A DNA stretch of 64,000 nucleotides, taken from positions 1 to 64,000 of the forward strand of contig ONRD01000003.1 in the NCBI GenBank assembly GCA_900320185.1, in the 5' to 3' direction. Origin of the DNA: an uncultured Bacteroidales bacterium (GTDB taxonomy: Bacteria; Bacteroidota; Bacteroidia; Bacteroidales; UBA932). Of the stretch, positions 46,615 through 64,000 are shown one piece after another (within the stretch, counting starts at the first letter, position 1; the number at the start of each line of letters is the position of its first letter). The notes below the pieces were generated by a model. That model worked only from the letters and a program-made list of their open reading frames with translations, ran no database searches and was not told where the DNA came from. The translations under genes were made by a program, and so were the position numbers.

Positions 46615-46638
46615 CTGAAGCTGCCTTTTCTTGGTGTG

Positions 46639-46646: not shown

Positions 46647-46678
46647 GCAAATCAATTCCTTTTTTGAAGCAATTGTGG

Positions 46679-46686
46679 TATTTTTG
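46679..46686 (+). promoter_or_regulatory. -7 box for ruvA
   Basis: TATTTTTG, 31 nt before the ruvA ATG, divergent from the sufS box. Confidence 0.5.
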
Positions 46687-46717
46687 CGAAACGGGTAACA
46701 GGCACCCGCCAGGAAAC

Positions 46718-47308: not shown

Positions 47309-47371
47309 AATAAGATTTTCGTCTGTGAATATGCTGTAAGAAAAAACCGTCGTTGGGTCTTGCAGATTGAA

Positions 47372-47405
47372 GCCTGAGAAGAAAAAGGCTTTCGGCCCTT
47401 CAGGC
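47372..47405 (-). terminator. Probable terminator between ruvA and mnmG
   Basis: An outer GCCTGA/TCAGGC pairing (47372-47377 with 47400-47405) encloses an AGGGC-GCCTT stem, followed on the minus strand by TTTTTCTTC. It would end mnmG transcripts. The rest of the 47309-47541 gap shows nothing else I can name. Confidence 0.45.
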
Positions 47406-47541
47406 GCTGTAGAGAAAGAGAAAGTCTTTCATCTATGCAGAAGACGGAGTAAAAAGGGTTTCAACTATCGTTGATTATACATAGGGGGGGGAAAACCGAC
47501 CGGGGAAGTCGAGGCTGACTGTAATCGAAAAACGAGATTGT

Positions 47542-49404
47542 CTACCTTCCGAAATATACCAAAAGGACAGAAATGTCGGCAGGGGAGACTCCGGATATCC
47601 TGGACGCCTGCGCAATTGTCCTAGGTCCGTACCGCTTCAGCTTTTGGCGGCATTCGATAGTCAAACCAGGAACCTTTTCAAAATCAAAGCCCTCGGGAAT
47701 GGCCAGTTCTTCAAGGCGTTTTATCTTGCCGGCTATGGTCTTTTCCCTCTCAATGTAGCCTTTATACTTTACTTCGACCTCAACCGCTTCAACAACTTCC
47801 TTAGGATAATTTGTTCCACGTGGAACAAATTCCAGAAGTTTCTGAAGTTTCAACTCAGGCCGAGAGGCAAGATCTGAAATCCTTCTGGACTCACCGAGTG
47901 GGGTAGAACCGCAAGATTCAAGATATTGATTTACAGCACCAGGCTTAAGGTTATGGTTCTCGCAATAATCGGACAGCTCTTCGGTCAATTCCAGTTTCCT
48001 GTGCATGAGTTCGTAACGTTCGGAACTTGCCAGGCCGATGGAATGAGAACGAGCTGTAAGCCTGAAATCAGCATTGTCCTGACGCAGGAGGATTCTGTAT
48101 TCAGCACGGGAGGTAAACATCCTGTAAGGTTCATCGACGCCTTTGGTGACAAGATCGTCAACAAGGACTCCTATGTACCCTTCGTCGCGGCGAAGGATGA
48201 AAGGATCCCGTCCAAGAACCTTCATGGCCGCGTTGATGCCGGCAAGGATTCCCTGGGCGGCTGCTTCTTCATAACCGGTTGTACCATTGACCTGTCCTGC
48301 AAGAAATAGATTCTCAATCTCTTTAAGTTCAAGGGTTTGCTTCAGTTGCAGAGGGTCGAAATAATCATATTCCACAGCATAGGCCGGCTTGAATATCTTT
48401 GCGTTCTCGAGTCCTTCGATGGAATGAAGGGCATCCAGCTGGACCTGAAGGGGGAGTGATGAAGAAAAACCTTGGAGATAATACTCGTTCGTGAATCTTC
48501 CTTCAGGTTCGAGGAAAAGCTGGTGGGAGTCCTTGTCCGGGAAAACCCTCAGCTTGTCTTCAATGCTTGGGCAGTACCTTGGGCCGATTCCGGTGATCAT
48601 GCCGGTAAAAAGGGGAGAATCCTGGAAACCGGACCTGAGGATTTCGTGAACCTTCACGTTGGTGTGAAGGATGAAACATGGCATCTGTGGATTTCCGGAC
48701 TGGACGGAGGATGGCCTGTCCAGATATGAAAATCTTTCTGGCTCCGCATCGCCCATCTGTGGTGGAAGTTTCGAAACAACCACAGAGGAAATGTCGATCC
48801 GCGGGGGAGTGCCGGTCTTCATGCGTCCGGTCCTGAGTCCAAGGCTCACGAGCTGCTCGGTCAGTCCATGGGAAGAAAGTTCTCCGATCCTGCCTCCTTC
48901 AAAAGATTTGCGCCCGATGAAAAGTTTGCCGCCAAGGAAGGTTCCGGCGGTCAGGATAACCGCTTGAGATTTAAAAATTGCCCCGGTATTAGTGTGGACC
49001 CCGCAAATTTTTGAATTCTCAAAGAGGAAAGAATCCGCAAAATCCGCGTAAATATCTAAGGTACAATGAGTTTCAAGAATATTCCGCCATACTGAAGAAA
49101 AGGCGCTTTTATCACACTGGGCCCTGGGGCTCCACATGGCCGGACCTTTGGAGCGATTGAGCATGCGGAACTGGAGAGTGGAAGAGTCAGTGACGATTCC
49201 CATCATGCCGCCAAGGGCGTCAACCTCGCGGACGATCTGACCTTTCGCTATTCCTCCGACTGCAGGGTTGCAGGACATCCTGGCGAAACTGTCAAGTCCG
49301 GGATTGACAAGAAGGACACGACAACCAAGGTTGGCAGCAGCTACGGCAGCCTCGCATCCGGCATGTCCGCCACCGACGACTATTATATCATAGTATCCTT
49401 GCAT
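47542..49404 (-). CDS. mnmG: tRNA uridine-5-carboxymethylaminomethyl modification enzyme MnmG (GidA)
   Basis: With MnmE, adds the carboxymethylaminomethyl group at wobble uridine 34. The 620-residue product starts [27 protein letters not shown] with the FAD-binding GxGxxG, has [31 protein letters not shown] near 200, and [21 protein letters not shown], with the C-terminal helical domain that docks MnmE. Length is normal. ybeY lies upstream (102-bp gap), an arrangement common in Bacteroidota. A perfect parS site lies inside the gene. gidA near parS and oriC is a familiar bacterial layout. Confidence 0.96.
47812..47827. promoter_or_regulatory. parS site (ParB binding palindrome)
   Basis: TGTTCCACGTGGAACA is an exact 16-bp match to the parS form known from Pseudomonas and other phyla. 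The palindrome extends to 22 bp (47809-47830). It lies in the mnmG coding sequence, 2.2 kb from the second site. Confidence 0.85.
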
Positions 49405-49506
49405 GGAGAAAAAGGAGTTTCTTATATAACTGCGTGGAGAAGGGGGGCTTGAAAACCTCAGGGGGAAAGAGGGTCCTTATAAAACAGAAGATAAAAAAAG
49501 AACCTG

Positions 49507-49932
49507 TTAACGGGAGAGGGCTTGCCTCATGGCGAGATAGTAATCTTCCTTGGAACGCATTGTTTTCTGCTCTTCGGGTGTGTGGTCGTCATATCCTGCA
49601 AGGTGGAGGATTCCATGGACCATGACACGGTCTAGCTCATCAAGGAATTCCACCCCGTACTCGAGAGCATTCTCCCTGACGGAGTCGATGCTGATGAACA
49701 AGTCTCCCGAAAGGATATTGCCCTCGCAATAATCAAACGTTATTATGTCGGTGAAATAATCATGCTGCAGGTACCGCATGTTGACATCCAGGATATAGTT
49801 GTCCGAACAGAAGACGATGGAAATGTCTCCGAGCTTCTTGATTTCGCTTCCTGCCACCATATTCAACCACTTGCTTGTCGCCCTGCGATTCTTGAAAACG
49901 AACTTCACGTCTTCACAAAAATACCTCACCAT
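49507..49932 (-). CDS. ybeY: Endoribonuclease YbeY
   Basis: Metal-dependent RNase needed for 16S rRNA 3' processing and ribosome quality control. The 141-residue product (from the ATG at 49932, the frame start at 49953 being a TTG) contains the Zn motif HGILHLAGYDDHTPEE (about 112-127). The upstream DYFTDIITFDYCEG strand fits the family. Transcribed toward mnmG. A TAAATTTG box (49958-49951) lies just upstream. Confidence 0.92.
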   Translation of the reverse strand: MVRYFCEDVKFVFKNRRATSKWLNMVAGSEIKKLGDISIVFCSDNYILDVNMRYLQHDYFTDIITFDYCEGNILSGDLFISIDSVRENALEYGVEFLDELDRVMVHGILHLAGYDDHTPEEQKTMRSKEDYYLAMRQALSR

Positions 49933-49977
49933 CTGTTGATAAATTTTTGACAAATTTATAACTATTAATTCAAAAAG

Positions 49978-50008
49978 TTTGAAATGAGAATTATTATTTC
50001 TAACTTTG
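49978..50008 (+). promoter_or_regulatory. Promoter of tonB
   Basis: TTTG (49978-49981), 19 bp, TAACTTTG (50001-50008). It is a consensus Bacteroidota promoter 65 nt before the ATG, and its left part overlaps the ybeY promoter region. Confidence 0.85.
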
Positions 50009-50073
50009 GATGCAAAATAGGACTTGCTGAAGACCGGCAGAAGCCGATAATTTGAAAGTTAAAAAGTACGGAT

Positions 50074-50766
50074 ATGGAAATCAAGAAGACTGAAAAAGCA
50101 AATCTTGAAAACAGAAGATTGCTCTTTACGGAGATCGGACTTGTCCTGGCCCTGCTCCTCGTTTGGGGCGCTTTCTCCTATGGAACCAGGGAGAAGAACG
50201 TTGCCACTCTGGAAGCGGAGACCCAGGTCATTGAGGTAGAGGATGTTATCCCTATCACCGAGAACACCCCTCCGCCGCCCCAGGAGGCTCCTCAGATCCC
50301 TGTCCTGTCAGACCAGATCGACATCGTTGAAGACAACATCAAAGTTGATGACAACTTCATGAGCCTTGAAGACAATGCCAACCTCGGAGTTGAAATCCAG
50401 GATTATGTCGAGGATGTGAAGGAAGAGGTCGTCGAAGAAGAGGCCATTCCGTTCCAGTTGGTCGAGGAGAAGCCGACATTCAATGGCGGAGACGCACAGA
50501 CTGAATTCCCGAGATGGGTCCAGTCACAGCTTGTCTATCCTGAAATTGCGAAGGAAAACGGTGTTTCCGGCCGTGTCGTCCTTCAGTTCACCGTCATGCC
50601 TGACGGCAGCCTGGCGAACATCAACGTCGTCCGCGGAGTAGACTCATCTCTTGACAAGGAAGCTGTCAGGGTTGTCAAAAGCTCTCCTAAATGGAAGCCC
50701 GGAAAGCAGCGTGACCGCGCTGTAAAGGTTACTTACACATTCCCTGTCATTTTCCAGCTCCGATAA
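50074..50766 (+). CDS. tonB: TonB family energy transducer
   Basis: Couples the proton motive force to outer-membrane transporters such as SusC. The 230-residue product has a basic N-terminus, one membrane helix (about 20-37, LVLALLLVWGAFSYG) and a Pro/Glu-rich periplasmic linker with PPPPQEAPQIP. The C-terminal TonB domain (about 145-230) contains YPEIAKENGVSGRVVLQFTV and the final KVTYTFPVIFQLR. No exbB/exbD genes lie beside it. It has its own consensus promoter. Confidence 0.93.
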   Translation: MEIKKTEKANLENRRLLFTEIGLVLALLLVWGAFSYGTREKNVATLEAETQVIEVEDVIPITENTPPPPQEAPQIPVLSDQIDIVEDNIKVDDNFMSLEDNANLGVEIQDYVEDVKEEVVEEEAIPFQLVEEKPTFNGGDAQTEFPRWVQSQLVYPEIAKENGVSGRVVLQFTVMPDGSLANINVVRGVDSSLDKEAVRVVKSSPKWKPGKQRDRAVKVTYTFPVIFQLR

Positions 50767-50786
50767 AAGGATATTCAGGAAAAAAG

Positions 50787-50894
50787 ACAAAGAGGCTGGC
50801 CCAAAGAGGTTCTTCGGCAGGATCTTCCTGCCTCAGAGAGACATGACCTGTCAATCTGGACGTAATGAAGAATCTTCCGGGGCAGCCTCTTTGT
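50787..50894 (+). ncRNA. Candidate structured RNA between tonB and hflX
   Basis: ACAAAGAGGCTGGCCC (50787-50802) pairs with GGGGCAGCCTCTTTGT (50879-50894), 15 of 16 positions. Inside, TTCTTC pairs with GAAGAA, then GGCAGGA-TCT-TCCTGCC forms a 7-bp hairpin and GACA/TGTC a small one, giving a three-way-junction layout of about 108 nt. There is no U run, so it is not an ordinary terminator. It could be a repeat element, a processing site or a structured leader for hflX. Confidence 0.5.
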
Positions 50895-50938
50895 ATCATC
50901 TATGGAGGCCCTCTCCGTAACAATACCGTCAACAGCAG

Positions 50939-52126
50939 ATGTCTGAAGAAAATAAGATTGAAAAAGCCGTCTTCGTTGGGATAATCCGTCAGAACGACGA
51001 CGAGAGAAAGGTAATGGAATACCTTGACGAACTGGAATTCCTGGCGGAAACAGCAGGTGCGACGGGAGACAGGAAGTTCGTACAAAGGTTGGACAAGCCG
51101 GAGAAATCAACTTACATAAGAAGCGGCAAACTGCAGGAAATAGCTGATTACTGCGAAGAAAACAAGGTCAGCTATGTGATCTTCGACGATGAACTCACCG
51201 GCATGCAGCAGAGGAACATCGAGAAGGTGATCTCCTGCAGTTCAGTGATCGACAGGACCAGCCTGATCCTGGAAATATTCGCACAAAGGGCAAAGACCTC
51301 GTATGCAAAGATGCAGGTGGAACTGGCCCGCTACAACTACATGCTGCCTCGTCTTGCCGGAATGTGGACGCATCTGGAAAGGCAGAGAGGCGGTATGGGC
51401 ACCAGGGGAGGTATGGGTGAAACCCAGATAGAGATAGACAGGCGGATCGTAAAGGAGAGGATATCCCGGCTGAAAGAACAGCTCAAGAAAGTGGACCGGC
51501 AGATGGCCACGCAAAGGAGCAACAGGGGATCCATGGTAAGGCTTTCCCTCGTGGGGTACACAAACGTAGGGAAGAGTACTATCATGAACTTGTTGGCAAA
51601 ATCCGAGGTTTTCGCTGAAAACAAGCTGTTCGCAACCCTTGACACAACGGTGAGGAAAGTGGTCATCGAGAATGTTCCGTTCCTTCTGAGCGACACAGTC
51701 GGATTCATCCGGAAACTTCCGACCCAGCTCGTAGAGGCGTTCAAGAGCACACTTGACGAAGTCAGGGAGGCGGACATCCTTCTCCACGTGGTCGACATCT
51801 CACATCCTGGATTCGAAGAGCAGATGGAAGTTGTCGAGAAGACGCTTCGGGACATCGGGGCGTCGAACAAACCGGTCTATGTGATTTTCAACAAGACCGA
51901 CGCCTACACGTACGAGGAATATGACGAATTCTCGCTCGTACCGAAAGGGAAGGAGAACAGGACGCTGGAAGAACTGAAAAACAGCTGGATAGCGCAGGAA
52001 AAGACGCCGTGCATCTTCATCTCTGCCAAGAATAGGACGAACATCGAAAAACTACGCTCCGACATCTACAAGATGGTGGCCGAGATCCATGCAGGAAGGT
52101 ACCCTTTCAACAATTTCCTCTGGTAA
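50939..52126 (+). CDS. hflX: GTPase HflX
   Basis: Ribosome-associated GTPase that splits stalled or idle ribosomes under stress. The 395-residue product has the N-terminal HflX domain (VGIIRQNDDERKVMEYLDEL, IFDDELTGMQQRNIEK), the glycine-rich linker GGMGTRGGMGETQIE, and the G domain with GYTNVGKSTIMNLL (G1, about 202-215), DTVGF (G3), NKTD (G4) and SAKN (G5). It starts the tight plus-strand run: the SEDS-PBP gene begins 12 bp after its stop. Confidence 0.94.
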   Translation: MSEENKIEKAVFVGIIRQNDDERKVMEYLDELEFLAETAGATGDRKFVQRLDKPEKSTYIRSGKLQEIADYCEENKVSYVIFDDELTGMQQRNIEKVISCSSVIDRTSLILEIFAQRAKTSYAKMQVELARYNYMLPRLAGMWTHLERQRGGMGTRGGMGETQIEIDRRIVKERISRLKEQLKKVDRQMATQRSNRGSMVRLSLVGYTNVGKSTIMNLLAKSEVFAENKLFATLDTTVRKVVIENVPFLLSDTVGFIRKLPTQLVEAFKSTLDEVREADILLHVVDISHPGFEEQMEVVEKTLRDIGASNKPVYVIFNKTDAYTYEEYDEFSLVPKGKENRTLEELKNSWIAQEKTPCIFISAKNRTNIEKLRSDIYKMVAEIHAGRYPFNNFLW

Positions 52127-52138
52127 AATCTTCTATCC

Positions 52139-55100
52139 ATGCGAATCTACCGTCCGTCAAACCTGAAAGAGGAAAAGCCCGGGGCCTTCAGGGGACGTGG
52201 TGCCGAATTCCTTCTGATGCTGGCCGTCACTGCCTTCCTGGTCCTTCTCGGATCCTGCCTCTACCGCAGGCAGTCAGCCCAACTGGCCCTGATGGACAAC
52301 GGGCGCTTCGTCACGCTCGGACCTGACGTTTCTGCGGACAGCCTGAAGAAAGTCCTGGTTGACGAAGGATATATCCTTGACGGCAGGGATGCCTCGTTCA
52401 TCGCCGATTCGCTCTCGGCCAAAGCAAGGAGGTTGCCGCTTCCAAACCTTGGATCTATAAACAAGAAAGACTGGAAAGTCCTTTCCGAGAATGCCTTGGC
52501 CCTGGGAGGAAAGGGCTTGCAGGCAAGGGTCCGCAATTCCTATGCAAGGCTGGGTCTGGACTCCCTCCTCAGGGTGCCTGCCCTGGCGGATTCCTCACTT
52601 GCGGCAGAACGGTCGGAAGACGGTTCTTTCAAAGTAGGGGAGGGACGGCTCAGGATCAAGGCCGTCATCCTTCCCCAGAAAGGGAAACACCGGACGGACG
52701 GCCCGGTCTGGGTAAGACTTACAAAGTACCGCAGCAAGGAACAGATTGACAGCCTGGAAGTTGAATATGACGACGAAGGCTACCCCCTGCCGCTCCAGAC
52801 TTCTGAATCATGGTATGCCCTGGCGCAGCCGATAAAAGGAGGGAAAGCACTGTCCGTCGTCTTCTCTGGGCTTGAAGGCGATGGCTCGTACAGCGTGCTT
52901 CCCGTCCGGAGGGGATTCGAATACGGACCTCCGCGCGGAACAACCAAGACCGGACACCTTTCGGATGAAAGGGCGTGGAGGGGTTGCTCCACCTACCGCT
53001 TCAGGGAAAATGAAAGCAGGATCAGCCTGTTCTCGCCGCAGGAATATTCATCGCTCAAGAACGACTCGGTCCTGAGGGTAAGGACAACGGAAGGGTACCT
53101 TGGGTCGCTCTCTCTCTTCCTTGCGCTGTTCCTTATCGCCTTCTGGGGAACGCACATATTCCTGCTTGCCTTCAACGGCAAGGCTTCGCAGGGTATCCTG
53201 CCTTTGGTCATGCTGCTGTCGGGAATATGCGTCATCAGCATGTACGCCTTCTTCAGCCCGCTTCAAGACACCCTGCAGGGCAGGGAAATGGTCCTGGGTA
53301 CCATCATAGGACTGGTGGCGCTCTGCCTGCTGAGCAAGGTTGACTATGTCAGGTTCTGGAACAAAGTTTCCTCTTTCGATGACTCCGGCTACCTGTTCGC
53401 GGCGGCAGGGATAGTACTCCAGTTCCTGCTGCTGGCCTTCGGACATGGTCCCGAAGGCAGCGGAGTGAAGGTCAATCTTTGGTTCTTTCAACCAAGCGAG
53501 ATTACCAAATACCTGACAATCATTTGCTTCGCCTTTTATTTCGCAAAAGATTCAAAGACTCTTTCAAAACTTCCTTTCAAAAGGAGGATCATTCGCACGA
53601 TGATCCTGGCAGGGATATTCGGCGCCCTCCTCCTTCTATACCTTGCGACAGGAGACATGGGGCCTGCAGTCGTGCTTGCCCTGACGTTCATCTATTTCTA
53701 TTCCTATGCAAGGGGAGACTTCAAGCAGATGGCTCTGGGCGTCGTCTCGCTCGGAATCCTGCTGTGGATTTCAGCCCGGTTCTGCCAGGGCATCCCGATG
53801 GCAGGTCTCGCCGCCGTCATCATATGGCTTGCAATATACCTGCTGTACGGATTCCTGTCCCGCAGATTCCATGAAAGCGCCCTCCTGATGGCTTTCATAA
53901 TATGCGCGTTCTTCTTCCTTTCGGACATCCCGGGAGTTCCGGAAAGGATGGCGACAAGGACAGACATGTGCGAGAATCCCTTCGACACAAGGTTCTTCGG
54001 AGGCAGCCAGGTGGCGGAAGGAATATGGGGTCTTTCAACCGGTGGACTGAAGGGAAGGGGAATAGCTTTGGGAAATGCCAATGTCATTCCCGCCGGACAC
54101 ACGGACATGATACTCTCCAGCATAGGAGAAGAAGGCGGTTTCCTGGCCCTCCTCGTCATTGCCGCCGTGTTCGCAATGCTGCTTCACCGGTGCCTCCTTA
54201 CAGGAAGGAACTCCGGACATCCATTCCTGTTCTACCTTTCCTCCGGAATAGCGGTCTCAATGGGGATCCAGTTCTTCGTCATAGCACTCGGCAGCACCGG
54301 AGTGATTCCCCTGACCGGTATCTCCGTTCCGTTCATCAGTTTCGGGAAAGTGGGCATGATCTTCTCGCTCGCCTCCATGGGAACCGTGCTCGGGGTGTCG
54401 GTTTTCAGACCTACAAGGGAACAGTTCGAAAACACGAGGGAAAGCTACGACAACGCCCTGCTGCTCTCCATGACTACCTTTTCGCTGATGATGGTCTTCC
54501 TCCTTGGGGTCTTTGCCGACTATCAGGTATTCAACAGGGACAAGTACATCGTAAAGCCGGCCTTGACTGTAAACAAGGAAGGTGAACAAGTCGTAGCTTA
54601 CAATCCAAGGATCCGTCTGCTGATGAAAGAACTCAGGAGCGGAGACATCCTGGACAGGAACAACCTTGTCCTGGCCACCTCCGACCCCGGCTCCATTGAC
54701 GGAAAGGACTATTCCGTCTTTGCGAAGGGTAGGGAACCGGAGCCGCCGAGGGCGGCCATGGAGAAGAAGAAACGCTTCTATCCCTGCGGGATGCACACTT
54801 TCTTCTGGACCGGGGACGCCAACACTTCATTGATGTGGGGACAGGAGGAAAGAGGTTATTTCGCAGAAAGCCGGCATCTTTCCCGCCTGAGGGGTTTCAA
54901 GGTTCCGCCTGTGTCTCTTGAGTCTCGTTCTTTCAAGGATAAAGGATTCATTTCAAGGAGGTTCGGTTCGTTCCTTCCGGAATCCGAGATTCCAGCCCAA
55001 AGAGTCCTTCAGGGATGGGACTACAGCGATCCTGAACTTGTTGCCCTCCTCAAGGCCGGGCCCCACAGCGAAAAAGTCAAGGAATACAACGAGAAGGTCC

Positions 55101-56473
55101 ACGAAAGAGACATCACCCTCAGCCTGGATGCCACCCTGCAGGCCAGGATCCAAAACGGCCTGGATGCCTTCTTCTCCACCAGGAACAAGAGCAGGACTTC
55201 CACGGTCGTCATCAACGGAAGTACCGGAGAGGTGCTCGCCTCCGCGCTATATCCTCTGCCTTCGACGGAAGACATCAGGAAGGTCCAGGACCTCTGGTCT
55301 CCCGAAGACAATTTCCTTCAGAGAAGCCTCGTTTCGCTCGGTACCGTCGACGGGCACATATTCACCGATTCGGACTTGGGAATGACCTATGCTACGGCAC
55401 CCGGATCGACGGCGAAGGTGATGTCGGGGATGGCCGCCCTGGAGAAGACCGGCGGCAATCCTCCCAGATTCACCATCTACCCCTATGAATCCATCCACAA
55501 CGATGAATCCGGGGACGATATCACGATGGAACAGGCCATCGTCAGGTCAAACAACCCTTACTTCATCCACCTGAACAACGAACTGGCCACCGACGACTAC
55601 CTGATGAAGATCTACCTTGCCGCAGGGATAAGGGTAGGCGGAAAAGGCAGCAACCAGTTCTTTCCCCTGGCCTACAGGGACGAGGAATCCATCAAGGAGA
55701 CATGGAGGAAGGTATTCAGCGAAAGAAGGGACAGCTACGACAAGCATCTCAGGGAGCACAGGAACCTCAACGAACTCTACGCCATCGCCAGGAAGAGGGG
55801 ACAGGAGCCGGATCCTGCCAGGGTAAAGGACATCCAGGACAGGATAAAGCGCGGCCTCAGGAGTGAATTCTCATACCTTGCATGGGGCCAGGGACAGATG
55901 CAGGCCACTCCTCTTGCAATGGCGAGGATGATGGGGGCCGTAGCCTGCAACGGCACCATGAAAGAAAGCGTCTATCTCATTTCCGACACGCTCCGTTCCC
56001 CCTCGGAGCAGCTTTGGGACCCTTCCAACGCAGCGATCATGCAGGGTTACCTTAAAAAGGAATCCTACTCTCTCTCGCAAGGGACCGGAACGACCGTCTA
56101 CGGTAAAACCGGAACTCCGGAACAACTCATCCTGAAATCTTTCTCCAGGAGGAACAGGGCCGGAGCGGAAAGGTTCGTGGAAAGGAACAGAAGGTACTCT
56201 TCCCGTACGGACGCCTATCTTTCCTACGACAGGGGAAACGTTAAATACAGGGTGAATCTCGACTCCAAGGGCAACCCCGTCAACATGTGGGTCAGGGAAT
56301 ATGTGAAGAAGAACGACGCCTGGTACCTGTTCTACGCCTTCGGCAAAGACGGCACGCCTATTGTTGCCTGCATAAGGATTGAAAGGACCGGGAGGCTTTC
56401 CGACCTTGCGAAAAAGGAAGTGGCAAGGTCAGTGGTCATCCCGTGCCTTAAAGAATGCGGTTATCTCGAATAG
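52139..56473 (+). CDS. Fused SEDS glycosyltransferase (FtsW/RodA) and class B penicillin-binding protein
   Basis: A 1,444-residue membrane protein that should both polymerise and cross-link peptidoglycan. Order: a membrane helix (about 24-43) and a 290-residue extracytoplasmic domain of unknown type. A multi-helix SEDS module (about 335-790) follows, with WFFQPSEITK at 448-457, GDMG at 505-508, the catalytic aspartate in HTDMILSSIGEEGG at 656 and GISVPFISFGKVG. After another membrane helix comes a transpeptidase (about 1020-1444) with the SxxK nucleophile S1090-TAK, SNN at 1137-1139 and KTG at 1323-1325. All canonical catalytic motifs are present, so both activities look intact. It heads a five-gene run with two FHA proteins, PP2C and a kinase, its likely regulators. 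Confidence 0.92.
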   Translation: MRIYRPSNLKEEKPGAFRGRGAEFLLMLAVTAFLVLLGSCLYRRQSAQLALMDNGRFVTLGPDVSADSLKKVLVDEGYILDGRDASFIADSLSAKARRLPLPNLGSINKKDWKVLSENALALGGKGLQARVRNSYARLGLDSLLRVPALADSSLAAERSEDGSFKVGEGRLRIKAVILPQKGKHRTDGPVWVRLTKYRSKEQIDSLEVEYDDEGYPLPLQTSESWYALAQPIKGGKALSVVFSGLEGDGSYSVLPVRRGFEYGPPRGTTKTGHLSDERAWRGCSTYRFRENESRISLFSPQEYSSLKNDSVLRVRTTEGYLGSLSLFLALFLIAFWGTHIFLLAFNGKASQGILPLVMLLSGICVISMYAFFSPLQDTLQGREMVLGTIIGLVALCLLSKVDYVRFWNKVSSFDDSGYLFAAAGIVLQFLLLAFGHGPEGSGVKVNLWFFQPSEITKYLTIICFAFYFAKDSKTLSKLPFKRRIIRTMILAGIFGALLLLYLATGDMGPAVVLALTFIYFYSYARGDFKQMALGVVSLGILLWISARFCQGIPMAGLAAVIIWLAIYLLYGFLSRRFHESALLMAFIICAFFFLSDIPGVPERMATRTDMCENPFDTRFFGGSQVAEGIWGLSTGGLKGRGIALGNANVIPAGHTDMILSSIGEEGGFLALLVIAAVFAMLLHRCLLTGRNSGHPFLFYLSSGIAVSMGIQFFVIALGSTGVIPLTGISVPFISFGKVGMIFSLASMGTVLGVSVFRPTREQFENTRESYDNALLLSMTTFSLMMVFLLGVFADYQVFNRDKYIVKPALTVNKEGEQVVAYNPRIRLLMKELRSGDILDRNNLVLATSDPGSIDGKDYSVFAKGREPEPPRAAMEKKKRFYPCGMHTFFWTGDANTSLMWGQEERGYFAESRHLSRLRGFKVPPVSLESRSFKDKGFISRRFGSFLPESEIPAQRVLQGWDYSDPELVALLKAGPHSEKVKEYNEKVHERDITLSLDATLQARIQNGLDAFFSTRNKSRTSTVVINGSTGEVLASALYPLPSTEDIRKVQDLWSPEDNFLQRSLVSLGTVDGHIFTDSDLGMTYATAPGSTAKVMSGMAALEKTGGNPPRFTIYPYESIHNDESGDDITMEQAIVRSNNPYFIHLNNELATDDYLMKIYLAAGIRVGGKGSNQFFPLAYRDEESIKETWRKVFSERRDSYDKHLREHRNLNELYAIARKRGQEPDPARVKDIQDRIKRGLRSEFSYLAWGQGQMQATPLAMARMMGAVACNGTMKESVYLISDTLRSPSEQLWDPSNAAIMQGYLKKESYSLSQGTGTTVYGKTGTPEQLILKSFSRRNRAGAERFVERNRRYSSRTDAYLSYDRGNVKYRVNLDSKGNPVNMWVREYVKKNDAWYLFYAFGKDGTPIVACIRIERTGRLSDLAKKEVARSVVIPCLKECGYLE

Positions 56474-56481
56474 TTACGGAA

Positions 56482-57240
56482 ATGGGACTGAAACAACTCC
56501 TTGAAAGACTCAGGGGCGACAATCACGTCGAAAGGGAAGACGACATCATCCGGAAGATAGCTTCAGGACTGAAGGACAGGCTCTATCAGTCAACGCTGAA
56601 GCATGTCGACATCTATTTTTCTGAATATCCTGAACCGACGACCCTTGAAAGCATATTCAGCACCCCAGGATTCAGGAAGGACCTTATCGTTGCCGCGCAG
56701 GACAAAGGAGTCCCTATCGATTCTTCGACGGACATACGCTTCGATCCTGTGACTCCGGCCCCGGATGAAGCTTTCGAGGTGTGCGCCGGAGTGAAGGTCG
56801 TCGGTTCCACGGTGAAGTCCTTTCCCAAAGCCAGCAACGCCACGCTGAAGGTTTACGGTAATTCCGGAATACTCGAACGCGGGACCTACGTGCTGGAAGG
56901 CAAGGTCCACTCCAGATACAAGGTAGGACGAGGCGAAAACGTCGTTCTGGACGATGGGCTGCGGAGGCACAACGACATTGTGATAAAAGCCGTGGAGGGG
57001 GACGCCTTCCAGGAGGGCTGTCCGGAACACAACAATCTCCATGTCAGCAGGAAGCAGTGCCTCATCGAGTACCATGAAGGAAAGTTCCTCCTTTCCAACG
57101 AAGGAGACGACACAAGGATACTCCGCGACGAACAGAAGATAAAGCTTCTGAGCCCTTTGCAGAAAGTCGCGCTCAAAGACGGTGACATCATCGTCCTCAA
57201 CAGGAAAGTCATGCTTTTGTTCAACCTCAACAAAGATTGA
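56482..57240 (+). CDS. FHA-domain protein with FhaA-like N-terminal domain
   Basis: Phosphothreonine-binding adaptor candidate, 252 residues. Residues 1-110 resemble the N-terminal domain of actinobacterial FhaA (a charged helix, then TPGFRKDLIVAAQDKG and DIRFDPV). The FHA domain (about 145-250) has the GR of YKVGR at 149-150, an SR pair at 189-190 followed by KQC, where FHA domains have a conserved His, and no NG(T/S) strand, so the binding pocket is atypical. It starts 8 bp after the SEDS-PBP stop; the longer frame from 56455 overlaps that gene. The next gene starts 1 bp after its stop. Confidence 0.8.
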   Translation: MGLKQLLERLRGDNHVEREDDIIRKIASGLKDRLYQSTLKHVDIYFSEYPEPTTLESIFSTPGFRKDLIVAAQDKGVPIDSSTDIRFDPVTPAPDEAFEVCAGVKVVGSTVKSFPKASNATLKVYGNSGILERGTYVLEGKVHSRYKVGRGENVVLDDGLRRHNDIVIKAVEGDAFQEGCPEHNNLHVSRKQCLIEYHEGKFLLSNEGDDTRILRDEQKIKLLSPLQKVALKDGDIIVLNRKVMLLFNLNKD

Positions 57241-57241
57241 A

Positions 57242-58234
57242 ATGACGCTGAAGGAAATACTGAAGAAGCTGATGGGGCTTGAAGACCAGGACCCCGTGGA
57301 AAGGCAGCAGAAGGGCCAGTACAACAAGAGACTGATGGAAGAGATCAGGAACTGCTTCGTACAGAACCTTGAAGCCGATTCCGTCGGGACGCAGATGATC
57401 TACCCGATGTCCTTCATAATCCTGGTCAACAACGAGGACTATGTGGAAAGGAAAGACCAGTTCCTGCTTATCCAAAGGCAGATAATCAACGTTTTCTACG
57501 AAGAGATACGCTCCAGGAAATCCAAGTATCCGGACTACTACACCTTCAACTGGTGGCATCTTCAGTTCATCCCGATGAGCGAAGACAGTTCCATTGTAGG
57601 CAACACCGACATAGGAGAGCTGAAGAAGGGAGACATCGCCATCCTTGCCAGGCTCTCAGAAGAGAGACCGGAAGACAAATCCTATCCTTCCAACCAGAAG
57701 ACTGAATCCAATGTCAGGGTCTCCTTGAGGTCCGGCAACTCGGTGGTCTACCAGACCAGGAACATCAACATCAACCTCCTCACACACGTAGACATTGAAG
57801 GAGAAAACAATTTCTGGGTAAAATTTGACGAGTCCCTGCGTCCCCTCAAGGTGGAAGCGAAAAATGATTCCGGGACAAAGGGGATGGATACTGACACGAC
57901 TTATGCAACCCTTTCGTGGATGCTCAATCCGGGACAGAAGGCAACTTTCTCGATGATAACTCCTTCCATAGAAATAACAGGTAAAGGGGACCCCAGGAAA
58001 AGGGCAGACATCTGCAGGATAGAGACCCCTGGAGTAGGAAGGAGCCATGCCCTGCTCCGTTTCAATGGAGAGAAATTCGAAATCTGTCCTTTCGGGGAAA
58101 TGCGAAGGGGGGAAAGGATTATTCCTTCATGCTCCCCCGAGAGGCAGATCTGGACACCTATACCTGACGATTGCGACCTTCTCTTCCTGAATGACGAAGG
58201 TGACACCGCAGTTAAATTCTCAAAAGCCAGATGA
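57242..58234 (+). CDS. Second FHA-type signalling protein
   Basis: A 330-residue cytoplasmic protein. The N-terminal 120 residues again look like the FhaA N-terminal domain (LMEEIRNCFVQNL, MIYPMSFIILVN, RKDQFLLIQRQIINVFYEEI). The middle part is strand-rich. The C-terminal 70 residues keep an FHA-like core, VGRSHALLRFNGEKFEI, with the SR-H order shifted to GRSHA. The start MTLKEILKKLMGLEDQD parallels MGLKQLLERLRGDNH of the first FHA protein, suggesting a duplicated pair. Its stop overlaps the PP2C start by 4 bp (ATGA), implying coupled translation. Confidence 0.68.
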   Translation: MTLKEILKKLMGLEDQDPVERQQKGQYNKRLMEEIRNCFVQNLEADSVGTQMIYPMSFIILVNNEDYVERKDQFLLIQRQIINVFYEEIRSRKSKYPDYYTFNWWHLQFIPMSEDSSIVGNTDIGELKKGDIAILARLSEERPEDKSYPSNQKTESNVRVSLRSGNSVVYQTRNININLLTHVDIEGENNFWVKFDESLRPLKVEAKNDSGTKGMDTDTTYATLSWMLNPGQKATFSMITPSIEITGKGDPRKRADICRIETPGVGRSHALLRFNGEKFEICPFGEMRRGERIIPSCSPERQIWTPIPDDCDLLFLNDEGDTAVKFSKAR

Positions 58235-59142
58235 GTGCCGGAAAAGAAACAAGGATGGGAACGCTTTCCCTTGCAGGAAAGACTGATGTCGGACTTGTAA
58301 GGAAGAACAACGAAGATACTTTCATATCCAGAAAGATATGGGACGGCAAATGGTGCCTTGCCGCCGTGATAGATGGAATCGGGGGATATGAAGGCGGTGA
58401 GGTTGCCTCTTCCGTCGCAGAACATGAGATCTGCTCCTATCTGGAAGAATTCAAGTCAGGGAATCCGGGAAGGCTCCTGGCAGAGGCCGTGAACTCGGCC
58501 AACAACGCAATCTTCGAGGAAAGGAAGACCTCTGAGGTATATTCAAGGATGGGTTGCGTGCTTACGGCTGTACTTACGGATGGAAAGACCCTTTACACGG
58601 CGCATGTAGGTGATACAAGACTCTATCTCGCAAGGAAGGGGCGGCTGGTGAAACTGACTCACGACCATTCCCTTGTCGGATACAGGGAGGAAATAGGCGA
58701 CTTGAGTGAAGAGGAAGCCATGAACCACCCCATGAGGAACGTCATAAGCCGCGACCTCGGGGAAAGCCTTCACAACCATGACGACGAAAACTGGATAGAA
58801 ACATCCTGCCTTCCCATTCATTCCGGAGACATACTCCTTCTATGCAGCGACGGGCTTTCCGACCTGGTCACTTCAAAGGAAATGTGCGGCATCCTGTTTG
58901 ACGGAAAGTCCCTCGCAGAAAGGGCCGGAGAACTTATAGGGAAGGCCCTTTCCAAAGGAGGGAAGGACAATGTTACAGTAGTACTGGTTGAACGCGACCG
59001 GGATGATGACGAAAATGAAATCCAAGTGGAAACGGTTGGACATAAAGCACTTGAAAGAAAAACTATCCTCCTTGTCCTGGCTGTGTCCTTGATTGCCGCC
59101 GCTGTTCTTTTCTTTATATTGAAAGTAACCAACATCATTTAA
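58231..59142 (+). CDS. PP2C-family Ser/Thr phosphatase with C-terminal membrane helix
   Basis: PstP/Stp1-like phosphatase that would reverse the neighbouring kinase's phosphorylation. The 303-residue product has the PP2C aspartate motifs in order: NNEDTF (26-31), VIDGIGGYEGGE (47-58), GDTRLYL near 127, SDGLSDL near 210 and GGKDNVTVVLV near 248. A single hydrophobic helix at about 279-298 (TILLVLAVSLIAAAVLFFIL) leaves only a few residues outside, making it a tail anchor. PstP of actinobacteria is likewise anchored. It is followed 3 bp later by the kinase gene. Confidence 0.92.
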   Translation: MSAGKETRMGTLSLAGKTDVGLVRKNNEDTFISRKIWDGKWCLAAVIDGIGGYEGGEVASSVAEHEICSYLEEFKSGNPGRLLAEAVNSANNAIFEERKTSEVYSRMGCVLTAVLTDGKTLYTAHVGDTRLYLARKGRLVKLTHDHSLVGYREEIGDLSEEEAMNHPMRNVISRDLGESLHNHDDENWIETSCLPIHSGDILLLCSDGLSDLVTSKEMCGILFDGKSLAERAGELIGKALSKGGKDNVTVVLVERDRDDDENEIQVETVGHKALERKTILLVLAVSLIAAAVLFFILKVTNII

Positions 59143-59145
59143 GCC

Positions 59146-60393
59146 ATGCCTAAACCTTTCCTCAGGGAATTCGAAATAAAGAGTAAAAGTACGGCCAATG
59201 AAGGTGGCTATGCTTCCGTCTACAAGGTAAAACACTTGAAACTGGGTTACATCAGGGCCTTGAGGGTACTTCATGCAACCATAGAAGACGAGAATGATCC
59301 CAAGTACCTGCAGTTCCTCGAGGAGTGCAAGTTGCTGCTGAGGATCGGCAACGGAGGACACAGGAACATCGTCCGCATATTCCAGCCGCGCCTCGTAGAC
59401 AACAAGGCGTTCGTCGAGATGGAATACATTGAAGGAACCGACCTGTACGACTTCCTCGCAAAGAATAAGGGCTTCATCCCCATGGAAGAGTACTACAGGT
59501 TCGCCTTCCAGGTTGCCGATGCCCTCGCATACTGCCATCACGACATCTACAGGTACTGCATGGACCTGGATGAAGACGGAATAGAGGATGATGAAAACGG
59601 GAATCCGGTGATCACGCCAGAAGTCGAGCGGAAGCTCGTGGAAAAGTACCAGGTCATACACAACGACATCCACTCGAAGAACATAATGAGAAGGATGGAC
59701 GGTGAATATATCCTGCTGGACTTCGGACTTGCCGTACAGAACGGCAACACGGTAAGAAGCAGCACCAGGAAGGCGGGAGTCTATGAATACATGGCTCCGG
59801 AGAAATTCGAAGACAGCGGTGTCCTTACCACAAGGACGGACGTCTACGCCTTCGGGATCCTTATGTACGAGATGCTCTGCGGGACCGTTCCGTTCAAACT
59901 TGAAGGAGACGCCCCCTCACAGATCTACAATCTCCAGATGAAACAGATGAACGATCCCGTTCCGTCGTTCTTCAAGGCAAGGAAGGCTTGTTACGAAAAA
60001 TCCCATCCCGGCAGCACTTATGTCCGCGATTTTCCAAAATGGCTTGAAGAAGTCATCATGAAATGCCTTGAAAAGAATCCGGCCGACCGCTATAATGACT
60101 GCAGGGAACTCCTGGATGACATGAAGATGCACATGGCTGAATCCGGTGTATCTGCAGATGGAATCTTGAACGTGGAATCGCAAGGTCTGCTTAAAGGAAA
60201 GATAGCTGCCCTTTCGCGCGAAATAGAGGAAAAGGACAGGCTCATCAGTTCCCTTGAAGGAAAACTTACGGAAAAAGACCTTGTCATTGAAAACCTGAAG
60301 GACAATTCAAGTCATTCCAGCCTGAGCAGGAGGATAAGGGAACTTGAGAAAGAAAATGAATCCCTGAGGAATAAAAAGAAATGGCCCTGGTAA
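59146..60393 (+). CDS. Ser/Thr protein kinase lacking the usual ATP lysine
   Basis: A 415-residue soluble protein. Kinase lobes at 15-315: glycine loop EGGYASVY (19-26), HND at 172-174 in place of HRD, DFG at 192-194 and MAPE at 216-219. The beta-3 lysine of VAIK is arginine (ALR, R40). A 30-residue acidic insert before the catalytic loop contains DLDEDGIEDDENGNP, like a calcium-binding TSP3 or EF-hand loop. The last 75 residues form a coiled coil. There is no membrane helix or PASTA domain. It is last in the operon, with the phosphatase upstream; it may be a kinase with low or altered activity, or a scaffold. Confidence 0.82.
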   Translation: MPKPFLREFEIKSKSTANEGGYASVYKVKHLKLGYIRALRVLHATIEDENDPKYLQFLEECKLLLRIGNGGHRNIVRIFQPRLVDNKAFVEMEYIEGTDLYDFLAKNKGFIPMEEYYRFAFQVADALAYCHHDIYRYCMDLDEDGIEDDENGNPVITPEVERKLVEKYQVIHNDIHSKNIMRRMDGEYILLDFGLAVQNGNTVRSSTRKAGVYEYMAPEKFEDSGVLTTRTDVYAFGILMYEMLCGTVPFKLEGDAPSQIYNLQMKQMNDPVPSFFKARKACYEKSHPGSTYVRDFPKWLEEVIMKCLEKNPADRYNDCRELLDDMKMHMAESGVSADGILNVESQGLLKGKIAALSREIEEKDRLISSLEGKLTEKDLVIENLKDNSSHSSLSRRIRELEKENESLRNKKKWPW

Positions 60394-60428
60394 AACCGGA
60401 GCCATTTGCTTTATAGGAATATTCCCTG

Positions 60429-61208
60429 TTACTGGGCGAACTTCGAATTGAAGAATTCCCTGTTGAGGCGGGCGATGTGCTCGATGCTTATACCCTTTGG
60501 ACACTCGAGTTCGCAGGCACGTGTGTTGGTGCAGCCTCCGAATCCAAGTTCTTCCATCTTTGCAACCATGTTCCTGGCCCTTCTTGCAGCCTCCGGACGA
60601 CCCTGTGGAAGCAATGCCAGTGAACTTACCCTTGCTGCAACGAACAGCATTGCAGAACCGTTCTTGCAAGTAGCCACACAGGCTCCGCAGCCGACACAGG
60701 CTGCAGCATCCATGCTCTTTTCAGCCTTCTCATGAGGAATGAGTATGCTGTTCGCATCCTGGGCCGAACCTGTACGGACGGAAATGAATCCTCCTGCCTG
60801 GAGTATCTTGTCGAAAGCGCTGCGGTCGACAACCAGGTCCTTTATGATGGGGAAGGCCGGGCTCCTGAAAGGCTCCACGGTGATGGTCGCTCCATCCTTG
60901 AAATGACGCATGAACAGCTGGCATGTGGTGACATGGTCATCCGGTCCATGAGCCCTGCCGTCGATGAACAGGGAGCAGGCTCCGCATATACCTTCACGAC
61001 AGTCATGGTCGAAAGACACGGGACCGCTGCTCTGGCAGCCTCTTTCAACAGCCACAGGATCGTTTCCCTCTCGGATAAGCTGTTCATTCAGGATGTCAAG
61101 CATCTCAAGGAAAGAAGCATCCTCCTCGATTCCTGAGATGTGATAGGTCTCGAAATGACCCTTTTCCCGGGCGTTCTTCTGACGCCATATCTTAAGATTG
61201 AATTCCAT
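60429..61208 (-). CDS. frdB: Succinate dehydrogenase/fumarate reductase iron-sulfur subunit
   Basis: Passes electrons between the membrane anchor and the flavoprotein. The 259-residue product has the [2Fe-2S] cysteines in [11 protein letters not shown] (about 68-78) and the later C in VTTCQLF. The [4Fe-4S]/[3Fe-4S] ligands are in [11 protein letters not shown] (about 171-181) and [14 protein letters not shown] near 230. It lies 6 bp after frdA. The kinase gene converges on it with a 35-bp gap and no clear terminator. Confidence 0.94.
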
Positions 61209-61214
61209 ATCCGG

Positions 61215-63161
61215 CTAGTCTTTGTAATTTCTGGTTTTAACTTCGATGAATTCGTACTTCAGGGGTTCCTTGTGCAGTTCGGGATCCTTTCCTTCACCCT
61301 TGTATTCCCAAGCAGCCACATACATGTAATTGGCATCGTCCCTCTTGGCCTCGCCTTCTTCGGTCTGGCTTTCTTCGCGGAAGTGTCCTCCGCAGGACTC
61401 GTTCCTGTTCAGGGCATCCCTGGCCATCAGTTCTCCTATTTCGAAGAAATCCTCGAGCCTGAGGGCCTTTTCGAGTTCCTGGTTGAACTCGTACTGCGAA
61501 CCGGTGACGCGCACGTTGGAGTAGAAGTATTCCTTGAGTTTGCGGATTTCTTCTATGGCCTTCTTCAGTCCTGCTTCATTACGCGCCATTCCGACATATT
61601 CCCACATTATGTTTCCAAGTTTCTTGTGGATGACATCGACAGGTTCCTTGCCCTGGATGGAGAACAGCCTGTCGATCCTGGCCTGGACAGCCTTTTCGGC
61701 TTCGTCGAAAGCAGGGTTGGCGACATCTGTCTTAGGTTCTGCGAACTTGTGGGAGAGATAATCTGCGATGGTGACCGGAAGTATGAAATAACCGTCGGCA
61801 AGACCCTGCATGAGCGCGGATGCACCCAGGCGGTTTCCTCCGTGGTCGGAGAAGTTGGCCTCTCCGATAGCGTACAGTCCGGGAATGGTTGTCTGAAGGT
61901 CGTAATCAACCCAGATTCCACCCATGGTGTAGTGGATGGCCGGATAAATCATCATCGGCTCTTCCCAAGGGCTGACATTGTTGATCTTGAAATACATGTC
62001 GAACAGGTTGCCGTAGCGTTCCTGCACCCTTTGGTGGCCGAGCCTCTTTATTGCGTCTGAGAAATCGAGGAAAACTGCAAGACCGGTCTCGTTCACACCG
62101 AAGCCGGCATCGCACCTTTCCTTCGCAGCCCTTGATGCAACGTCACGGGGAACGAGGTTTCCGAAAGCAGGGTAACGGCGCTCGAGGTAGTAGTCCCTGT
62201 CTTCTTCCGGAATCTGCGAAGGCTTGATCTCATGCTTCCTGAGCTTCATCACGTCTTCCATCTTCTTGGGAACCCAGATACGTCCGTCGTTCCTGAGGGA
62301 TTCGGACATGAGGGTAAGCTTGCACTGCTGCTGACCATGGACGGGGATGCAGGTAGGATGGATCTGTGCGAAGCAGGGATTTGCGAAGAAAGCTCCCTTC
62401 TTGTAACACTGCCAAGCAGCGGAACCGTTGCTGTTCATCGCATTTGTGGAAAGGAAGTAAGTGTTTCCGTAACCTCCGGTGGCTATCACTACTGCGTGGG
62501 CTCCGAACCTCTCGAGCTTTCCGGTCACCAGGTTGCGGGCTATGATACCCTTGGCCTGGCCGTCTATGACCACAAGGTCGAGCATCTCATGGCGGGGATA
62601 GCTCGTGACGGTCCCGGCTGCGATCTGGCGGTTGAGCGCAGCATAAGCACCAAGAAGGAGCTGCTGTCCGGTTTGCCCACGGGCATAGAAGGTACGGCTT
62701 ACCTGGACGCCTCCGAAAGAACGGTTGGCGAGGTAACCACCGTATTCACGTGCAAAAGGAACTCCTTGTGCGACACACTGGTCTATGATGGCAGCGCTTA
62801 CCTCTGCGAGACGGTAGACATTGGCCTCACGGCTGCGGTAGTCGCCTCCCTTGATGGTGTCGTAGAAAAGACGGTAGACGGCATCGTTGTCGTTCTGGTA
62901 ATTCTTGGCGGCGTTGATTCCACCCTGTGCGGCGATGGAATGAGCCCTTCGCGGAGAATCGGAAATGCAGAAAACCTTCACATTGTAGCCAAGTTCACCG
63001 AGGGAAGCGGCTGCAGAAGCGCCTCCAAGTCCAGTTCCGACCACGATTATCTCCAGCTTTCTTCTGTTGTTGGGATTCACGAGACGAAGCTCTGATTTGC
63101 GTTTGGTCCATTTTTCGGCCAAAGGTCCGTCAGGAATCTTTGAGATTAGTTTTTCGGCCAT
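61215..63161 (-). CDS. frdA: Succinate dehydrogenase/fumarate reductase flavoprotein subunit
   Basis: FAD-bearing catalytic subunit. The 648-residue product (ATG at 63161; the frame upstream is non-coding) has the FAD motif [20 protein letters not shown] near 39-58, the [10 protein letters not shown] site where FAD is attached to histidine, and HPTCIPVHG. The catalytic region [37 protein letters not shown] follows. The start context has only a weak -7 box (TAAAATTG). In Bacteroidota the cytochrome b anchor gene normally comes first; it is not upstream here. Confidence 0.95.
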
Positions 63162-63233
63162 TTTATTATGTTTTATTGTATGTTTTGCTTCCTGGGCAGA
63201 AATAGTCTGCAATTTTAGTCATTTTTATCGTAT

Positions 63234-64000
63234 TCAGCAATTTTTATAGCCTGCATCAGGCCATTTCGACCTGCACATCCTGCTGTATTTACGGAATATC
63301 CTCTTCAGGAGAAGGTCGTATCTCCATCCGCTCATCCCCGGACTGAATGAGGAATCGACATACTCCTCAACCTTGCGGCACTCACTCGCACACCCGTTCT
63401 CGAATCCGCATATTCCTTTTATCACCAAAGAATAACTGCAGATCTTGGATTTTTCAGAGTCGTTCTTCAAGTAAGCGGGGACATGGTCCTTCTCCCTCAC
63501 CATCAAAGGAACATAGACGCAGGTAGTGGGACAGCCGCAAATCGTCCACATCACCGTCCGCAGGGGATCCTCCCCTGGCGCAACGCCCTCAAAAACTATT
63601 GAAGCAGAGGTTATATCCCTTACTATAGGTTTTCCGGAACGGGATATCATGTTGAATATTTCCTTATGGGAAACAGTCGACACGTCCATTCCCTCCATTA
63701 TGCTCTCAGCCTTTTCAAACCTGTCCACTCCTTTCCTGTCTTCAGCCCGTCCGCTTCTCGTGAAATTAGTAACCACCATCCATCCACCTTCCTGGTCGGC
63801 CACATCGTATCTTTTCCAACTATGGTTGTTTACCTCATAATATGCAGCTTCGCCAAGGGCGTCTATTATTCCGAAATTGGCCTCTACGCCCCATGGTTTC
63901 TCCCTTTCTGAAAGGTACTTTTCAAAATCGGCGAGGCTGGCGCATCTCCCGAGCGCTTCGAACATGACTTCTCCCTCGCGGTCCATCATACCGGCAGGGA
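63234..64000 (-). CDS. Partial Ntn-hydrolase-like protein (C45/linear amide hydrolase group)
   Basis: The 3' part of a gene whose start lies beyond the window; the frame is open to base 64000. The visible 255 residues include IIDALGEAAYYEVNNHSWKR and MVVTNFTRSG, then a serine/acidic-rich region and TICGCPTTCVYVPLMV. That order is seen in the C-terminal half of acyl-coenzyme A:6-aminopenicillanate acyltransferase-like and related hydrolases. The catalytic N-terminal cysteine would be outside the window. It occupies the place where frdC usually stands, 72 bp upstream of frdA. Confidence 0.5.
   Translation of the reverse strand, partial: PAGMMDREGEVMFEALGRCASLADFEKYLSEREKPWGVEANFGIIDALGEAAYYEVNNHSWKRYDVADQEGGWMVVTNFTRSGRAEDRKGVDRFEKAESIMEGMDVSTVSHKEIFNMISRSGKPIVRDITSASIVFEGVAPGEDPLRTVMWTICGCPTTCVYVPLMVREKDHVPAYLKNDSEKSKICSYSLVIKGICGFENGCASECRKVEEYVDSSFSPGMSGWRYDLLLKRIFRKYSRMCRSKWPDAGYKNC

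Follow-up and report, generated by a model that had tools for sequence, protein, structure and literature searches.

At positions 52139-60393 of the window analysed here, a 64,000-nucleotide stretch of contig ONRD01000003.1 from an uncultured Bacteroidales bacterium (assembly GCA_900320185.1), five close-set open reading frames (ORFs) follow one another on the + strand with gaps of +8, +1, -4 and +3 bp. They encode, in order, a fusion of a SEDS-family protein with a class B penicillin-binding protein (PBP), a pair of FHA-type proteins, a phosphatase of the PP2C type and a Ser/Thr kinase. A sequence-only reading, made without database searches, had singled out this five-gene set with just these gaps and had likened it, function for function, to a cell-wall cluster of Actinobacteria, with the SEDS and PBP genes fused. 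The ORF coordinates confirm the layout, and the likeness is borne out type for type. The genes are as follows.

52139..56473, + strand: SEDS-class B PBP fusion, 1444 aa; Pfam FTSW_RODA_SPOVE and Transpeptidase
56482..57240, + strand: FHA1; Pfam FHA, 28.4 bits; an alternative earlier ATG lies at 56455
57242..58234, + strand: FHA2; FhaA_N-like N-terminal domain and degenerate FHA fold, on family-level evidence
58231..59142, + strand: PP2C Ser/Thr phosphatase; Pfam PP2C, 62.1 bits
59146..60393, + strand: Ser/Thr kinase; Pfam Pkinase, 125.8 bits

The two Pfam families of the fusion are matched in one ORF, FTSW_RODA_SPOVE at 108.9 bits (cut-off 26.4) and Transpeptidase at 55.2 bits (cut-off 22.1). 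By hydropathy, an extra N-terminal helix (residues 24-42) comes before a hydrophilic region ~280 residues long, forming an N-terminal domain at ~45-320 that is presumed to be extracytoplasmic. The SEDS part (~326-756) follows, then another helix at ~774-792 and the transpeptidase part, which runs to the C-terminus. A model of residues 1-345 (mean predicted local distance difference test score, pLDDT, 74.8) shows a helical part and then beta strands; the best matches of the N-terminal domain among solved structures were dioxygenase and pilin beta-sandwiches, none of them at E <= 0.001. The Asp of the xTD motif has a catalytic role in SEDS polymerases, and in the window fusion it is D656. The transpeptidase part carries SxxK (S1090/K1093), SxN (S1137/N1139) and KTG (K1323). 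Across all 24 fusions compared, the SEDS Asp, the Ser and Lys of SxxK, the Ser and Asn of SxN, and KTG are kept without exception, the xTD motif reading HTD in 23 and NTD in one.

SEDS matches fall at three places in the genome (five segments), two of them besides the fusion, on contigs C25 and C29. The C25 copy adjoins a gene matched by the transpeptidase profile, and the C29 copy sits in an apparent division and cell-wall cluster; the genes around the two are ones that we take to be mre, mur and fts genes from their order and the starts of their sequences. Because two other SEDS genes exist elsewhere in the genome, the fusion is a third one and not the housekeeping RodA/PBP2. Its grouping with the RodA of Bacteroidota is also rejected, as the phylogenies below indicate.

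In a FastTree phylogeny of 142 SEDS sequences (duplicate loci removed and domains <250 aa dropped; L047 and L144, the same gene twice, both kept), the 24 fusions formed one clade (1.0), itself within a clade of 58 (0.998) that was completed by 27 actinobacterial and 7 clostridial RodA sequences. The cluster context of the actinobacterial rows was checked in L046 and L047, the others having been found through similarity to the L047 RodA. An IQ-TREE analysis of 81 of the 142 sequences, 61 being left out by random subsampling, again recovered the fusions as monophyletic (99.8/99); they were a separate sub-clade in a group (100/100) that also included 13 RodA from Actinobacteria and 7 from Clostridia, and the genome's own RodA joined that of E. 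coli (99.4/100). Forcing the fusions together with six Bacteroidota RodA was rejected by the approximately unbiased (AU) test (3e-11). The transpeptidase part gave a similar picture. In a tree of 99 sequences rooted on E. coli FtsI (domains <200 aa dropped, the genome's own FtsI outside the set), the 24 fusions (0.999) were joined by six clostridial partners (0.888), further out by 23 actinobacterial partners (0.988) and then by the genome's own PBP2 (0.963).

The description of the second and third genes as two FHA proteins holds for the first directly and for the second by way of its relatives. FHA1 has an N-terminal region of ~140 aa and a C-terminal FHA domain with its own Pfam match; R150 and S189, common to at least 90% of the family, are present, and the family's H192 is replaced by Q. 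FHA2 is FHA-like through its relatives, through a structure profile search and through a low-confidence fold model. A Pfam scan of 23 FHA2 proteins returned FHA in 11 and FhaA_N in six (best 4.9e-6), the window protein having neither; when ten were scanned singly, FhaA_N was found in three, one of which (L133, 27.4 bits) lay above the cut-off of 25. A profile of 26 actinobacterial FhaA_N sequences matched the FHA2 N-region with a score of 33.4 and a probability of 58.7% over well-occupied columns, and in a column-shuffle control the maximum was 18.3 in 200, with 0/200 reaching 30. Other runs gave probabilities of 79% (with 3 actinobacterial sequences) and 54% (with 26). FhaA_N is present in one of 14 control genomes, that of Corynebacterium glutamicum. 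Against solved structures the FHA2 profile matched FHA chains (best 3.6e-6), and a Foldseek search with the model of the window protein had FHA domains (Rv0020c, GarA) among its matches at probability 1.00. These searches suggest, at the level of the family, that the second FHA protein resembles FhaA_N. The same identity was considered for the N-region of FHA1 and dropped, at profile probabilities of 4.15% and 0.85%. No membrane helix was predicted by hydropathy in FHA1, FHA2 or the kinase.

The PP2C, the genome's sole PF13672 match, has the four conserved Asp sites, which are kept in 22/22 rows, and a predicted C-terminal membrane helix at 279-297. The NCBIfam model for Stp1/IreP-type PP2C scored it at 209.9 bits against a cut-off of 230. 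In a tree of 48 PP2C rows (domains <150 aa and cluster copies already present removed; L047 and L238, the same gene twice, kept), 20 Bacteroidota cluster PP2Cs grouped together with a second PP2C of G041, a carrier from the same genus as the window. Support for that group was 99.9/100 including the actinobacterial PP2C L221 and 45.8/56 without it, and the deep nodes were weak. The second PP2C of G041 (L244, G041:C8:59424-60038) lies ~9 kb from the cluster PP2C and is its tree sister.

With Arg in place of the beta3 Lys (R40), the window kinase is not of the canonical active Hanks type, despite its catalytic Asp and DFG; its catalytic loop reads HNDIHSKN. The feature is shared by all five Bacteroidales kinases, which have Arg at beta3 and a loop of the form HND(I/M)H(S/P)xN, with His in place of the catalytic-loop Lys, and which all retain the catalytic Asp, Asn and DFG. 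Among the other 31 kinase rows the beta3 Lys is present in 28, four of them actinobacterial; the remainder are L135, with Glu in a weak, short and probably misaligned match, and L138 and a fragment from the window's own genome (L102), which are without the stretch. Pfam found no PASTA domain in the window kinase at E <= 1, and NF033483 scored 148.8 bits against a cut-off of 450. A profile built from the five Arg-type kinases matched the window copy alone among 247 genomes of the order (E <= 1e-60), a draw that evidently did not include G041, which contributed a kinase to the profile. Pkinase matches occur at three places in the genome, two besides the operon kinase. One of these, also a Ser/Thr kinase gene and within the window but outside the operon (15925-17382, - strand; Pkinase, 116.8 bits), has by eye a beta3-type Lys and an HKDLKPTN loop, followed by a hydrophobic stretch. 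In loci L126-L130 (family f121), kinase genes with the loop KHGD(V/I)KSNN flank the cluster on both sides.

Across Bacteroidota the five-gene set is recurrent, complete at 19 of 24 fusion loci, but rare. Fusion-level matches, with the window's own genome counted, were found in 1 of 31 genomes of the genus (E <= 1e-60), 2 of 59 of the family, 2 of 393 of the order (1 of 206 genera; E <= 1e-40) and 15 of 395 of the phylum (9 of 171 genera; E <= 1e-60). The order and phylum counts are estimates, as at most two candidates were scored per genome, many genomes are drafts and the draws differ. The fusion of G041 has 40% identity to the window protein in the best segment and 37% across the alignment. 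Among the best 80 loci from named genomes, 73 have non-fused SEDS genes; the fusions are those of Spirosoma terrae, S. lacussanchae, Larkinella humicola, Niastella caeni and three metagenome genomes of Bacteroidales. Such a rare and patchy spread points to an accessory system.

Where the fusion does occur, its partners tend to accompany it. With the window proteins as phmmer queries, all five types were present at 8/8 of the first fusion loci. Models were then built from these eight loci, a partner being counted as present when a domain scored >25 bits within the locus stretch. On this basis FHA1, FHA2, PP2C and kinase were all present at 18 of the 23 other fusion loci (19 of 24 with the window); taken singly, FHA1 was found at 22 of the 23, FHA2 at 20, PP2C at 19 and the kinase at 19, FHA2 reaching 22/23 at a laxer threshold (summed score >20 bits). 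At the 73 non-fusion SEDS loci, PP2C and kinase were found together in two, the actinobacterial clusters L046 and L047, and the FHA families in none, by Bacteroidota-derived models that may miss distant genes. The partners thus co-occur with the fusion more than chance would have it. Gene order varies among the fusion lineages, and several relatives have two kinase genes. The incomplete fusion loci are L133, L134, L135, L136 and L137. In L137 a PP2C ORF lies directly 5' of the fusion, and in its tree sister L138 the PP2C, SEDS and transpeptidase domains form a single 1384-aa ORF (L138:7262-11416), with the kinase ~5 kb away and other ORFs between. L134 and L135 are two fusions in one genome, G576, where the second, divergent one (L135:5165-9088) has no FHA matches nearby and a weak kinase match.

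The position of the block is informative as to how it may have arrived. It is bordered by two genes, the second of which we presume from its sequence to be sdhB.

50939..52126, + strand: hflX GTPase, left border of the block, 12 bp 5' of the fusion
60429..61208, - strand: sdhB, right border of the block

In four of seven regions from the same genus hflX is followed by sdhB without the operon between them, at spacings by tblastn ends of ~77 (L211), 84 (L213), 10 (L215) and 1209 bp (L214). Two further regions (L212 and L216) end shortly past hflX, and the last (L210) is without sdhB downstream. No fusion match was found in the four genomes with hflX next to sdhB, which are 72-85% complete, and in the window the operon occupies exactly the gap between the two genes. 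This adjacency in operon-less relatives favours, on comparison of gene order, a gain of the block in the lineage of the window over its loss by others. A complete set is also found on a Spirosoma oryzicola plasmid of 136,743 bp, typed as non-mobilizable, where the fusion is annotated as an FtsW/RodA/SpoVE family protein; it was the sole plasmid record matched among 72,556 (E <= 1e-30). Among viral contigs, four stretches fit the search pattern and none was a relative by tblastn, and three Listeria phage records match 11-12% of the fusion.

Taken together, we read the block, at a probability of about 0.68, as an accessory (third) peptidoglycan synthase that would be gated by a phosphorylation switch of its own and whose SEDS and transpeptidase domains and FhaA-like protein, as far as the trees and profiles reach, share ancestry with the actinobacterial cluster and the clostridial rodA-pbpA pairs. 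Judging by the conserved catalytic motifs, the SEDS part would polymerise lipid II and the tethered transpeptidase would cross-link the product. The kinase could phosphorylate the FHA proteins or cytoplasmic parts of the fusion; FHA1 would read the phosphate and, with FHA2 as a scaffold, might recruit or activate the fusion, and the membrane-anchored PP2C would reset the switch. A broader version, somewhat short of even odds, is that of a portable, self-contained phospho-switched synthase, of shared ancestry with the actinobacterial cluster, that moves among Bacteroidota (a chromosomal site here, a plasmid there) in an accessory role, either as a reserve or for specialised wall building, its Bacteroidales kinase being non-canonical with the beta3 Arg.

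Several observations weigh against this interpretation. The linkage of kinase and phosphatase is not constant, as L133, L134 and L136 have FHA genes alone beside the fusion and L135 has no partner. Taken alone, the window FHA2 has no Pfam match; confidence in its fold model is low (mean pLDDT 63.5), and the top Foldseek match of that model was an IRF9 complex, not an FHA protein, with no match at E <= 0.001. The fusion-cluster PP2Cs did not branch with PstP (7 actinobacterial rows, 6 distinct genes) in a tree with weak deep nodes. With both the beta3 Lys and the catalytic-loop Lys absent, the Bacteroidales kinase may be weak or inactive. Forcing the fusions together with the genome's own FtsW was only marginally excluded (AU 0.044) and was not rejected by the Shimodaira-Hasegawa test (0.155). 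The G+C content at third codon positions of the operon is inside the range of the other window genes, with no foreign signal, and absence from the relatives may reflect loss on several occasions; a number of the genomes searched are incomplete.

The resemblance to the actinobacterial cluster could instead be functional only, Bacteroidota having gathered SEDS, PBP, PP2C, kinase and FHA genes independently. Such a convergent assembly would be in keeping with a PP2C that does not branch with PstP, a window kinase without PASTA, an FHA1 without a predicted membrane helix and the differing gene orders. However, the SEDS and transpeptidase parts both group with actinobacterial and clostridial genes, an origin from Bacteroidota RodA is rejected and an FhaA_N-like domain appears to be shared; given the two trees and the FhaA_N-like FHA2, we regard independent assembly as unlikely and favour an ancestry that the SEDS and transpeptidase domains and the FhaA-like protein have in common with genes of Actinobacteria and Clostridia. 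Of the two origins proposed in the sequence-only reading, independent assembly or transfer, the first is therefore disfavoured. The PP2C, the PASTA domain and the FHA1 helix do not follow the SEDS link, and the trees and the FhaA_N-like domain are silent on the timing and direction of the shared ancestry. A different question is whether the Bacteroidales kinase works as such. It might be a pseudokinase that serves as a scaffold, senses ATP or a ligand and leaves the phosphate to another kinase of the cell, which would be compatible with a gated accessory synthase. The beta3 Arg and the His for Lys in the loop of 5/5 Bacteroidales copies, set against the beta3 Lys of 28 other rows, and the presence of two more Pkinase genes elsewhere in the genome speak for this, but all five copies retain the catalytic Asp, Asn and DFG and the metal-site Asp residues of the PP2C are kept, as if phosphorylation persists. 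We think it possible, though the odds are on the side of a kinase.

As to what the synthase would be for, one special case of the accessory reading is that it takes over when beta-lactams or wall-attacking toxins block the housekeeping pairs. Its accessory, patchy distribution, the plasmid copy, the position behind hflX and the precedent of the beta-lactam-induced extra FtsW/RodA of Listeria (PMC6686043, in the part of the article available) would all suit a by-pass of this kind, whereas the promoter scan of the operon was at the level of shuffled sequence. Such a role is conceivable, and we would not presume it. Far less probable is an anti-phage or conflict system, in which kinase and phosphatase would together detect an infection and send wall synthesis astray, the cell wall being the target of the effector. 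The kinase matches the PADLOC PD-T4-6 and mad6 models and the PP2C one weak model, and both the patchy distribution and the presence or absence at a syntenic site are of the kind expected of such systems. The PD-T4-6 and mad6 matches rest on the kinase domain, however, which is itself widespread; neither the fusion nor either FHA protein has a PADLOC match, and the synthase motifs are conserved.

Among known systems, the nearest is the actinobacterial fhaA-fhaB-pstP-rodA-pbpA-pknA-pknB cluster. The gene content agrees type for type, SEDS and transpeptidase fall in the same supported clade, an FhaA_N-like plus FHA architecture appears to be shared at family level, the PP2C has a predicted membrane helix, and several relatives have two kinase genes. 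In contrast to that cluster, here the SEDS and PBP are fused and carry an extra N-terminal domain, FHA1 is without a predicted membrane helix, the window kinase is without PASTA, the PP2C stands apart from PstP, and the set is rare in its phylum, its SEDS gene being the third in the genome. Since the PP2C lies outside the PstP clade and the kinase lacks PASTA, we do not file the set as a member of the actinobacterial cluster. Clostridial RodA-PbpA pairs are also related. Seven loci (L028, L029, L033, L043, L059, L071 and L085) are in the SEDS-tree clade of the fusions, and in the transpeptidase tree the PbpA proteins of six are the closest neighbours of the fusions (0.888). An ORF with weak likeness to FHA (12-13 bits) lies immediately upstream in L028 and L029. 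Unlike the fusions, these are separate genes, with no PP2C or kinase >25 bits in the stretches examined, some of which are short contigs.

PMC6554272 describes a seven-gene cluster conserved in Actinobacteria and a pknB-fhaA linkage in some Firmicutes, PMC11898655 describes the operon in Mycobacteriales, and PMC1262709 reports kinase genes clustered with rodA and PP2C genes in Gram-positives, a linkage like the present one in which, as far as the available text goes, neither a fusion nor a Bacteroidota set appears. Single-ORF SEDS-PBP fusions are noted in PMC10449877, where, unlike in the Bacteroidota set, the accessible text names no phospho-signalling partners. The string 'Bacteroid' has 0 occurrences in the available text of either PMC6554272 or PMC10449877, and FtsW, RodA and transpeptidase have 0 in that of PMC12088040. 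The extra FtsW/RodA of Listeria monocytogenes, the combined absence of which raises beta-lactam susceptibility, are likewise supernumerary SEDS proteins with conditional roles, but no fusion or kinase/FHA operon is described in the part of PMC6686043 available. No report of a Bacteroidota version of the set was found among the titles and abstract beginnings listed from the open-licence PubMed Central literature, which is no proof of absence.

Phospho-control of wall synthesis by fha, pstP, rodA, pbpA and pkn genes has thus been described, in the available parts of these sources, for Actinobacteria and partly for Firmicutes. Because the related set is rare in Gram-negative bacteria it is probably dispensable there, and the switch could be taken apart gene by gene in carriers that can be cultured, for instance Spirosoma. 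A polymerase and a cross-linker in a single chain, joined in one relative by the phosphatase, constrain how such a switch can act. The natural Lys-to-Arg kinase, kept beside a phosphatase, makes it possible to ask whether catalysis survives or is lost when the beta3 lysine is missing.

Minor features of the locus and its relatives can be added. The end of hflX at 52126, on the same strand and 12 bp 5' of the fusion, means that the transcription unit may begin before the fusion, and hflX is possibly co-transcribed with the block. Promoter and terminator scans of the operon did no better than shuffled sequence. The Bacteroidota promoter pattern TTG, 18-22 nt, TAnnTTTG has its sole match on either strand of 45000-64000 at 49979, ~95 bp ahead of a tonB ORF that itself precedes hflX. 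A Prevotellaceae version (L025) has extra genes at 9981-11029 for a 196-aa protein and for one of 151 aa that carries a CW_7 repeat; a TerD identity for the ORF at 9981-10568, suggested by a resemblance, was dropped, with 0 Pfam families at E <= 0.01. In the same locus a P-type cation ATPase follows the PP2C, at 14367-17366. A further Bacteroidales version (L027) has downstream, at 13504-14469 and 18073-18819, genes for a Sel1-repeat protein and a protein with an FGE-sulfatase (SUMF1-like) domain.

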